Shown: positions 57,190 to 59,545 of the stretch, piece after piece | How the letters are laid out: every line of letters begins with the position of its first letter | Numbering within the stretch: position 1 is the stretch's first letter | Origin: Enterobacter sp. JUb54 | GTDB taxonomy: Bacteria > Pseudomonadota > Gammaproteobacteria > Enterobacterales > Enterobacteriaceae | Length of the DNA: 64,000 nt | Direction of reading: 5' to 3' | Assembly: GCF_014298075.1 (NCBI RefSeq) | Contig: NZ_CP060418.1 | Location: 5,146,001 to 5,210,000 of the forward strand | Made by a program: the position numbers and the translations under genes | Notes under the pieces: generated by a model | The model's input: the letters and a program-made list of their open reading frames with translations, nothing else | Databases searched by the model: none | Told to the model about the DNA's origin: nothing

Positions 57190-57258
57190 ACTATAATGGA
57201 CTGCAAAAGATAGCCATATTGTAATCAAAAAAGCAGACCATAATGGACGTCAAAAAAG
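57190..57258. promoter_or_regulatory. Direct repeats in the AhpD/MocR intergenic region
   Basis: ACTATAATGGACTGCAAAA (from 57190) is repeated as ACCATAATGGACGTCAAAA (from 57237), 47 bp apart; the second copy includes the ATG of the regulator gene. Direct repeats with TGGAC cores are known for MocR/PdxR operators. A third, weaker copy may begin at TAGCCATATTG (57211). Binding by the adjacent regulator is inferred. Confidence 0.5.
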
Positions 57259-58598
57259 TACCGCACTATCAGCGCATTGCCCGCCAGCTTAAATCGGCGA
57301 TCGAAGGTGGCGAACTGGCGCCCGGCAGCCGCCTGCCCGCCAGCCGGGTGTATGCCCAGGCGCTCGGCGTCTCCCGGGCCACCGTGGAAAATGCCTGGGG
57401 CGAGCTGGTGGCTCAGGGCTGGCTCGAGCGACGGGGGCAGGCCGGGACGTTCGTCAGCGACAGGCTAAGCCCGCAGCAGCAAGCCCCGGCGCGTGAGCCG
57501 CTCAGCAGTGAACCGACGGCGCCGCAGCCGTTTCAGATGGGGCTGCCGGCGCTGGATCTCTTTCCTCGCGGCCTGTGGGCACGGGTGATGGGGCGTCGGC
57601 TGCGCACCCAAACGCGGTTTGATTTGGCGCCGGGAGATCCGTGCGGGGAGGCGATCCTGCGCCGCGCGATCGCCGATTATTTGCGGCTTTCCCGCAGTAT
57701 TGAATGCCTGCCTGAACAGGTGCTGGTGACCGGGAGCTACGCCGCCTCGATGCAGTTGCTCCTCCGCACTCTGGCGCAACCCGGCCAGCATATGTGGATG
57801 GAAGACCCCGGCTTTCCGTTGATTCGACCGGTGATTACCCGCCACGGGGTGATTATCGACCCGGTGGCGGTCGATGACGAAGGGATGGATGTAACCCAGG
57901 CGCAGCAAGACTACCCGGAAGCCCATTTCGCGCTATTGACGCCGGCGCATCAGAGCCCGCTGGGCGTGGCGTTGTCGCTGAGCCGACGCCGGCAGCTGCT
58001 GGCCTGGGCGGCACAGCGCGATGCCTGGATCATCGAAGATGATTACGATAGTGAATTTCGCTACCAGGGGAAGCCGCTGCCGCCGCTGAAAAGCCTCGAT
58101 GCCCCGCAGCGGGTGATTTATGCCGGCACCTTCAGTAAATCGCTGTTCCCGGCGTTGCATGCTGCCTGGCTGGTGGTGCCGCTGCCGCAGGTGGCTGCAT
58201 TTCGCGAGCAGGCGCAGATGTTGAGCTGTAGCGTCCCGACGCTGTGGCAGCAGACGCTGGCCGATTTTATCCTTGAGGGCCATTTCTGGCGGCACCTGAA
58301 GAAGATGCGCGCCAGCTACGCCCAGCGTCGGCAGTGGCTGGAGTCGGCGCTGCAGCAGCAGGGGTTTGGCGTGGTGCCGCAGCTGGGAGGGATTCAGCTG
58401 GTGATAACGGTAAGCGGTGACGACCGGGCGCTGGCTCGCAAAGCGCAGCAGGCCGGGCTGGCCGCCCAGGCGTTAAGCGACTGGCGAATGGTAAGCCGCG
58501 GGGCGGGAGGGCTGTTGGTGAGTTTTACGAATGTGACGTCGATGGAGATGGCGACAGAGGTGGTGCGGCGGCTCAGGCAGGCGCTGTTTTCTTCTTAG
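57243..58598 (+). CDS. MocR-type regulator (GntR domain fused to aminotransferase)
   Basis: A 451-residue protein with an N-terminal GntR winged helix (about residues 1-75, [37 protein letters not shown]) and a C-terminal fold-type I aminotransferase-like domain (about 110-451). The PLP lysine is in [12 protein letters not shown] (about 300) and the Asp in [12 protein letters not shown]. Such proteins sense PLP or a PLP-amino acid adduct. It lies back to back with the AhpD-like gene. Its target and ligand cannot be told from sequence. Confidence 0.9.
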
Positions 58599-58640
58599 GG
58601 GTAACGCTGGTTATTGAGGCTCAGGAGGATTCAGGTAAAC

Positions 58641-59102
58641 GGTGGTTTGCGCGAAAGTGGTTTTTAGCCGCTCCAACTTCCTTGCAGCATGTCGCTATAT
58701 TCCATGCTTGCATTTTGGTCGCTGAAAAAACCTTCAGCCATGATATTGCGACGGGACAGCCTCGGGATGGCAGCGCGGGGGTTAAGGCGCATCAAGAAAA
58801 CGGGCGGGAACGCAGGCGCGCATCCAGGACTGACGGCCTGGACGGCCGTCAGAGGGCAGGTCGAGACAGGGATGTTGAGTCCGGCCCGGTCCGCCAGATG
58901 AAGCCGGAGTGGAGCATACCGCGCAGCGGCCGTTTTCAGCGCAATGCCGGGGGTCATGGGGGGCGAGCGAAACGCCCCCCATGCCGTTCACCCGCTGAGG
59001 GCGTGAGAAAAGTACTGGATTCACCGTGAACGGAACATTCCACGAAAGCAAACGGAATTGTCCACGGAGCCCACGCTAAAAACCACTTTCACCCAAACCA
59101 CC
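58641..59102. mobile_element. 462-bp element with 28-bp terminal inverted repeats
   Basis: GGTGGTTTGCGCGAAAGTGG then TTTTTAGC (58641-58668) is mirrored at 59075-59102, 26 of 28 positions matching. Inside are an 11-bp perfect hairpin (CATGGGGGGCG, 58955-58965, with CGCCCCCCATG, 58973-58983) and a 9-bp hairpin (CTGACGGCC, 58830-58838, with GGCCGTCAG, 58844-58852). Base composition differs from the AT-rich sequence to its right. No transposase is present, and I see no clear target-site duplication. It may be a MITE-like element, a phage-derived remnant or a structured RNA locus. It fills most of the 620-bp gap between the MocR gene and ygaM. Confidence 0.65.
58664..58957 (-). CDS. Possible 97-residue orphan ORF inside the 462-bp element
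   Basis: An open frame from ATG 58957 to a TAA inside the left inverted repeat. It starts [20 protein letters not shown] and contains [11 protein letters not shown] and [20 protein letters not shown]. The RAGLNIPVS segment resembles small phage-type proteins of the Icd/Ash kind, but I am not sure of this. It has no evident ribosome site, and its start codon lies in the 11-bp hairpin. It may be a decayed or non-coding frame. Confidence 0.25.
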
Positions 59103-59150
59103 CTGTAACGACAATCATGTCCACATCGGATGGCAAGCAATCAGACAACA

Positions 59151-59218: not shown

Positions 59219-59545
59219 TTATCGACGCAAATTCAATAATACGCCAATAAATAACCCAACGGCGGCGGCGGCACCCACACTCTGCCAGGGTTTATCCCGC
59301 ACGTAGGTATCGGCACAGCCTGCGGCATCGCGGGCAGCCTGCTGCACACGGTTATTGCCATTCAGGCGGGCACGTGTCTCTTTCAGCAATGCCTGTGCTT
59401 TTTTCCGCGCGGCGTCTGCTTCATCTTTGGCATCGCTGCCCCATGATTTCAGCACTTCTTCCAGCGTATCCGCTAATTGGCTGACATCGCTATGAATATC
59501 CTCAGCGCTTTCATCGATATTGTTGCGGTTTGCTCGGTTCGCCAT
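59219..59545 (-). CDS. ygaM: YgaM, ElaB/YqjD-family membrane-anchored protein
   Basis: A 108-residue DUF883-type protein: a long charged helical part (ESAEDIHSDVSQLADTLEEV, KDEADAARKKAQALLKETRA) and a C-terminal membrane anchor (VGAAAAVGLFIGVLLNLRR). Relatives ElaB and YqjD bind ribosomes in stationary phase at the inner membrane. E. coli YgaM is alike in length. It has GGGAGAACG as ribosome site. Confidence 0.93.
   Translation of the reverse strand: MANRANRNNIDESAEDIHSDVSQLADTLEEVLKSWGSDAKDEADAARKKAQALLKETRARLNGNNRVQQAARDAAGCADTYVRDKPWQSVGAAAAVGLFIGVLLNLRR

Follow-up and report, generated by a model that had tools for sequence, protein, structure and literature searches.

Which kind of sequence occupies the gap between the MocR/PdxR-like gene (57243-58598, + strand) and the YqjD/ElaB-like gene (59219-59545, - strand) of Enterobacter sp. 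JUb54, and does it belong to something that moves? Both gene names are our readings of the open reading frames in the window, by which we mean the whole stretch of DNA analysed (64,000 nucleotides). The element lies beyond the 3' end of the first gene and adjoins the terminator side of the second. A sequence-only reading had described it as 462 bp with 28-bp terminal inverted repeats, and had proposed a non-autonomous mobile element, a phage scar or a structured RNA. Its description was accurate: the arms (58641-58668 and 59075-59102) match in inverted orientation at 26 of 28 positions (92.9 %), and the two strong perfect hairpins of 11 and 9 bp are present (hairpins 3 and 1 in Table 1). The arm match, which gave E = 3e-4 in a genome-wide search, can be extended without gaps to 33 nt (58636-58668 and 59075-59107, 88 %). 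Folded as RNA, the 462 nt reach -204.9 kcal/mol (z = -4.93), and 0 of 100 shuffles went that low. We rejected a protein-coding reading: the four open reading frames of at least 60 aa inside the element had no Pfam match, and all 18 other rows of alignment A1 show at least one indel relative to the window that is not divisible by three.

Table 1. Features of the element (window positions) and the three further copies in the host genome.
Feature	Position	Strand	Identity	Remarks
Whole element	58639..59104	+		Bounded by inner-type inverted repeats; boundaries set by eye against orthologous sites without the element, chiefly G011
Left inverted repeat ACGGTGGTTTGCGCGAAAGTGGTTTTTAGC	58639..58668	+		Resembles inner repeat CGGTGGTTYTGGCGAAA of relatives
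Right inverted repeat	59075..59104	-		26/28 complementary to left repeat
Conserved RNA core, 156 nt	58787..58942	+		Extended TwoAYGGAY-type RNA; RF01731 match, model R1, covariation
Closing helices of two-hairpin domain	58821..58900	+		CATC/GATG and GGAC/GTCC
Hairpin 1	58830..58852	+		9-bp stem; loop TGGAC, containing GGA
Hairpin 2	58854..58887	+		Two stems with tandem G.A between them; GGA loop; includes ACAGGGATGT at 58866-58875
Hairpin 3	58955..58983	+		11-bp stem, loop AGCGAAA; compensatory changes inside the Klebsiella clade
CCGTTCAC (58984-58991) and its complement GTGAACGG (59026-59033)	58984..59033	+		Start of iteron-like GTGAACGGAA repeats, 3' of the core
Host copy 2	5241761-5242133		93 %	Element positions 60-434
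Host copy 3	1417803-1418083		87 %	Element positions 123-403
Host copy 4	2424657-2424925		88 %	Element positions 128-397

The host genome (5.30 Mb) contains four copies, the window copy included. Within the genus used for comparison, the Klebsiella/Raoultella clade, we found DNA matches in 12 of 20 genomes, our own among them, those in G004 and G005 being fragments of only 33 and 42 bp. The DNA search of 295 family genomes (own genus included) gave 15 matches, most of those beyond the genus being short fragments. Klebsiella indica (G006) has the most copies, with 39 matches to Rfam family RF01731, and 54 of the 60 stretches of the genome collection that contain the exact core 22-mer belong to K. 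indica TOUT106. The plasmid collection gave no match to the element. Blastn gave none in 20,395 E. coli records either, so the earlier statement that E. coli has nothing comparable holds at that sensitivity. Head-to-tail tandem arrays of the core occur at G007:C15:689363-691029 (L093) and in K. indica at G006:C57:18565-19804 (L092, L012), with starts ~390-530 bp apart. Besides, cores occur as head-to-head pairs (minus then plus) in several genera (L203-L208 in G233, L134-L136, L173, L178 and L151); in L134-L136 a single pair of IS4-type ends encloses both cores.

We compared the downstream-gene locus in 19 relatives. At 17 of these loci both flanking genes are kept, and none of the 17 gave a blastn match to the element. 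In the other two (G006 and G017), the upstream gene is mostly or wholly absent, and the fetched G006 locus has one match to the element sequence, at another place. Comparing by eye, we placed the left boundary at ~58638/58639 and the right one near 59104 against G011, and saw a remnant of ~40 bp beginning TAAACGGTGGTTTGG at the G015 site. The sequence-only reading had taken a single copy, always at this locus, as a sign against mobility; four host copies and 17 orthologous sites without the element dispose of that objection. Element positions ~128-403 are matched in most copies and the ends in fewer. In L003, L004 and three of the four G007 copies, the DNA match ends before the 28-bp repeats.

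How the relatives move is suggested by a second, outer pair of ends. Most of the aligned G006 copies have an AATGC(C/T)G.TCA.TTAAG-like sequence at both sides. Scanning 50 loci up to 420 bp either side of the core, a reach that misses longer elements, we found 16 copies flanked at either side by IS4-type ends (up to 4 mismatches), of which 14 are credible; in L077 and L079 one apparent end is an internal GTGAACGGAA repeat. Exact border repeats of 7-14 bp were present in eight of the 16 (five in G006, one in G008 and two in G035, all 445-582 bp long) and in 1 of 240 swapped flank pairs. The other eight lacked any exact border repeat of at least 6 bp; in L061 and L068 the border repeats are imperfect by eye. 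The target sites of these relatives are terminator-like palindromes, such as AAAAAACCGCAGCAATAACGCTGCGGTTTTTT around L078 in G008. Allowing up to one mismatch, we counted 52 occurrences of the IS4-type end pattern in G006, 8 in G015 and 3 in the host genome, compared with 0, 0 and 1 for the reversed control. Solitary IS4-type end hairpins AATGCTGGTCACCTAAGGTGACCAGCATTTTTTT in the host, at L236 (G000:C1:4406072) and L235 (G000:C1:4076884), look like ready-made intrinsic terminators.

A possible source of transposase was found in K. indica, where an intact IS4-type element of 1426 bp has the same kind of ends and encodes a 442-aa transposase with Nterm_IS4 and DDE_Tnp_1 domains. It has the repeat CATCCTTCAGGGCG within a CCCC...GGGG palindrome; at this site (L095, 2660-3999) the palindrome lies beside genes that look, as read from the DNA, to be of IS200/IS605 type. 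In G001, a broken IS4-type transposase remnant adjoins the end AATGCCGTTCACTTAAGC, identical to one class of the relatives' ends. An IS4-family transposase scored over the cut-off in two of seven genomes searched (G006 and G013), and there was no match in the window's genome. Partner transposase and copy number are not simply linked, because G013, with several such transposases, has one core match. Furthermore, six IS4-ended elements of G008 and G015 (L237, L238, L242, L244, L245 and L246) gave no match to our RNA model R1 at E <= 1, so the core seems dispensable for movement, and ends and core are separable modules. According to these results, there is a strong case for the mobility of the repeat family.

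The window copy itself has no IS4-type ends; the best upstream candidate, a supposed degenerate left end at 58602-58619, has 5 mismatches and proved to be host flank when compared with relatives. Its target duplication is GTAA at most and not clear. Because it has neither these outer ends nor a matching IS4-family transposase in its genome, it is probably no longer mobile. Its 28-bp repeats resemble inner repeats of the relatives, and in those relatives with target duplications repeats of this type lie inside the outer IS4-type ends. Hence, the proposal of a non-autonomous mobile element stands as regards the mobility of relatives and is doubtful as regards the 28-bp repeats as its transposon ends. 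The inner-repeat pattern (up to 3 mismatches) is in clear excess only in G008, with 24 occurrences against 5 for the reversed control, the host genome giving 7 against 6. These repeats could serve as a second pair of transposon ends, as the stem that closes a longer RNA, or in both ways.

As for the interior, the claim that no named family fits was wrong: it is related to TwoAYGGAY (Rfam RF01731), with adjacent GGA-loop hairpins inside a closing helix that shows covariation. The three sister copies in the host genome scored 50.4, 46.7 and 43.4 bits, all over the gathering score of 43. The window copy gave 37.8 bits (E 0.0014), below that score, and is filed here as a degenerate relative and not as a threshold member. 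Two other Rfam matches, sR60 and HOTAIR_3, are at chance level (E 2.2 and 4.3). From 12 loci compared with RF01731, eight matched over threshold (two of them host copies), two fell below it (42.1 and 36.7) and two gave no match. At E <= 0.001, with up to 9 candidates scored per genome, the family was matched in 43 of 295 family genomes (22 over threshold), at least 31 of the 43 having two or more matches. We also found matches in 20 of 321 class genomes, 14 of which had matches over threshold and 13 at least two matches, and none in 14 control genomes, E. coli included. G010, a genus member without a DNA match, has two RF01731 matches just below threshold and a full-length R1 match of 62.9 bits at G010:C1:1545950-1546012 (L249).

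Three alignments were used: A1, from which L020, L026 and L009 (all with insertions or deletions) were omitted along with the partial fourth copy of G007; A2, with 15 of the 19 A1 rows (without G007c, G015b, G006f and G006g); and A3, with 150 of the 164 R1 matches. In L020 and L026 (G008, R. ornithinolytica), hairpin 1 has a longer insert bearing hairpin-like stretches of its own. A hand-set structure of 47 pairs replaced the RNAalifold structure of A1, and because it was chosen after inspecting the sequences, the covariation counts lean towards it; slid pairings serve as controls. Among 15 Klebsiella-clade copies, 98.8 % of cells paired in this structure (at most 46 % when slid), with two-sided change in 11 pairs (shuffled mean 4.5, slid at most 2). 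R1, a 156-nt model built from 15 Klebsiella-clade copies only, gave 164 matches at E <= 0.1, spread over 89 loci of 32 other genomes, some places being counted twice because loci overlap. The 150 aligned matches include 135 that are distinct with 40-nt flanks and 130 that are distinct in sequence. In the latter, whose alignment was fitted to R1 and so leans towards the model, 90.0 % of cells pair (61 % shuffled, 32-47 % slid), and two-sided changes were seen in 44 of 45 pairs (39.6 shuffled, 21-27 slid) and in 1425 cells (393 shuffled, 167-216 slid), the covariation score being 0.576 (0.146 shuffled, 0.045-0.078 slid). By eye, the closing helices of other genera read GCTC/GAGC, CAACC/GGTTG, GACC/GGTC and ACATTT/AAATGT.

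An RNA read on the + strand is favoured because G.U outnumbers A.C, by 59 to 22 at the 29 well-paired positions and by 210 to 116 at all 45, the p-values being nominal since the rows are related. Folding energy does not single out that strand (z -2.1 for +, -3.7 for -). Taken together, the comparisons argue strongly for a conserved folded RNA structure of the core. The earlier idea of a structured RNA is thus borne out in its fold and covariation, transcription and function being the part that we infer.

One could ask which protein such an RNA might meet. The CsrA consensus is RUACARGGAUGU, its GGA lying in hairpin loops (PMC7652899, in excerpt), and the core presents GGA motifs in hairpin loops resembling it, as expected of a CsrA decoy. 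In the window, ACAGGGATGT of hairpin 2 equals exactly the last ten positions of the consensus. GGA is present in loop 1 of 125, loop 2 of 127 and both loops of 122 of the 130 distinct rows, counts that are inflated because the rows were found with RNA models already containing GGA loops; the host sister copy L003 has CGA in loop 1. Binding of TwoAYGGAY to CsrA was predicted in 2014 from motif matches, without a test (PMC4333381, in excerpt), and in the open-licence PMC literature we found no experimental one. The stems of the core hairpins are long, GC-rich and very stable, which counts against binding, as very stable structure might be disadvantageous for CsrA (PMC7652899, in excerpt). We consider a CsrA-decoy function of the core plausible, with the chances about evenly balanced.

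Outside the clade, the core is flanked at either side by IS4-type ends (up to 3 mismatches) in 5 of 31 genomes, the reversed pattern being found at none of the ends. Three of the five belong to one genus, with corresponding positions, and the others are G035 and G257. Judged by sequence, then, such ends accompany the core in three genera in addition to the Klebsiella clade. End matches in G213 (3 mismatches) were discarded as that genome's own GTGAACGGAATT repeat. In G233 and G045 we found a different end, GGTTCATCGCRGRTTAGCG: a search of 18 loci allowing up to 4 mismatches located it at 9 places, and its reversed control at 0; six of the nine directly adjoin A or T runs, one of them at the rprA terminator. 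At L207 (G233:C1:1665658-1667700), a core-bearing element directly adjoins the T-run that terminates the rprA sRNA, and the overlapping locus L037 has an RprA match. For the remaining genomes of other genera the ends could not be defined. Iteron-like repeats 3' of the core are genus-specific: GTTGACCTTAAAG in G038 (L164/L168), GTGAACGGAATTTTCACC in G213 (L198), longer units with CACCGGGC in G239 (L155/L161), and GTGAACGGAACATTCCACG at window positions 59026-59060.

The reading that we favour, at a probability of roughly 0.5, takes the window element as a decayed member of a dispersed family of non-autonomous mobile repeats carrying a conserved TwoAYGGAY-type structured RNA, which perhaps acts as a CsrA decoy. 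The transposase of a resident IS4-type element would have moved the IS4-ended relatives; copies would settle just 3' of genes and be transcribed by read-through; and the GGA hairpins would then bind CsrA, withdrawing it from mRNAs as CsrB/CsrC do. More tentatively, and with less than even odds, TwoAYGGAY at large may be a transposable CsrA decoy, in which different miniature transposons (IS4-type, or with GGTTCATCGC-type ends in two genera) set the same fold at terminators and so subject the CsrA regulon to a parasite-borne brake that depends on copy number; lower CsrA activity would possibly favour the element.

One could argue instead that the RNA acts in cis at 3' ends, as a transcript-end, anti-terminator or mRNA-stability element, its GGA loops binding another protein or none. 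We surveyed 38 Klebsiella-clade and G035 copies, with crude open frames of at least 110 codons as neighbours (L010 and L011, which share flanks, being one site in two species). Both neighbours could be called in 32, and the placement agrees with a cis role: the neighbouring genes are convergent for 19 copies, tandem for 12 and divergent for 1. Moreover, some IS4-type ends are terminator-like hairpins with a T-run (L002, L236). A site preference for terminators would, however, account for this placement without any cis function, and the compared copies are, with few exceptions, at different places in different species. An apparent orientation bias (26 to 8) was set aside, as it comes mostly from convergent pairs, which count alike either way; beside tandem genes the orientations are 6 to 6, so there is no sign of selection for co-transcription. 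In addition, a 2010 table, in the excerpt consulted, lists 'y n n' for TwoAYGGAY, its second column beginning 'cis'. On balance, we regard a cis role as unlikely.

The fold might also act as DNA, through single-stranded hairpins for transposition or as protein-binding repeats, with no RNA made. The many copies, their arrangement in tandem or inverted arrays and the iteron-like repeats beside the core fit this idea, as does a folding energy that does not favour the predicted strand. The excess of G.U over A.C on the strand read as RNA and the six IS4-ended elements without an R1 match speak against it, and we find it rather improbable. Similarly doubtful is a reading in which an independent small transposon, with a duplication of 3-4 bp (GTAA or TAA) and also found nested in IS4-ended copies, truly ends at the 28-bp repeats. 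The window copy does stop at these repeats, with host sequence directly outside on the left by eye, and the inverted arms of a G233 copy, from another genus, contain the similar repeat GGGTGGTTTTGGCGAATAG. This is, however, one example only, with a duplication of 4 bp at best, and matches in several relatives end before the repeats, as noted above for L003, L004 and G007. Finally, a scar of a phage or satellite can practically be dismissed, with no match to the element in 50,697 phage records and no exact core 22-mer in viral contigs; nor did we see a core within an intact prophage.

What is new here is that a known orphan RNA is joined to miniature transposons. Finding relatives of TwoAYGGAY as conserved miniature-transposon cargo in enterobacteria gives this orphan a biological setting, and the CsrA idea becomes testable through natural high-copy (K. 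indica) and no-match relatives; it suggests that transposable elements could titrate a global regulator. In the open-licence PMC literature we found neither a report of TwoAYGGAY mobility nor one of IS4-type MITEs carrying such cargo, and the words IS4, CsrA, Klebsiella and Raoultella are absent from the main text of a review of prokaryote MITEs.

Compared with known systems, the core is closest in build to TwoAYGGAY, listed in 2010 as a probable RNA with function unassigned (in excerpt): both have two GGA-loop hairpins and a closing helix, and three host copies exceed the gathering score of RF01731. The fold described here, at 156 nt, is the larger one and includes additional covarying helices, and the family is dispersed and multi-copy, its relatives riding miniature transposons; the excerpts of the TwoAYGGAY literature do not mention a larger fold, dispersed repeats or transposon carriage. 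The relatives resemble IS4-family MITEs in their AATGCYGNTCASTTAAG-type ends, their lack of a transposase and the exact border repeats of eight copies, an intact IS4-type element with such ends being present in K. indica. They differ in carrying a conserved structured RNA cargo and sitting in terminator-like hairpins, and the window copy lacks these ends. With the decoy RNAs CsrB, CsrC and RsmX-Y-Z the core shares GGA hairpin loops and a CsrA-consensus apex. E. coli CsrB, however, has 22 GGA sequences (PMC7652899, in excerpt), compared with two main GGA hairpins in the core, whose family, unlike CsrB/CsrC, is multi-copy, has no promoter known and is only predicted to bind CsrA. Regulatory or putative regulatory RNAs on mobile elements have precedents, likened here by description, in the IS200 5'tnpA RNA of Salmonella, which comes from an insertion sequence and for which CsrA is named only as a protein worth testing (PMC12594629, in excerpt), and in the MITE-related small RNAs of Coxiella (PMC5896051, in excerpt); the elements and RNAs described here are other ones. 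RU-1 (ERIC), RU-2 and RU-3 are likewise small dispersed intergenic mobile sequences of enterobacteria (PMC2759123, in excerpt), of 103-168 bp with TA ends and TA duplications, from which our copies are set apart, by description, in being larger and having other ends.
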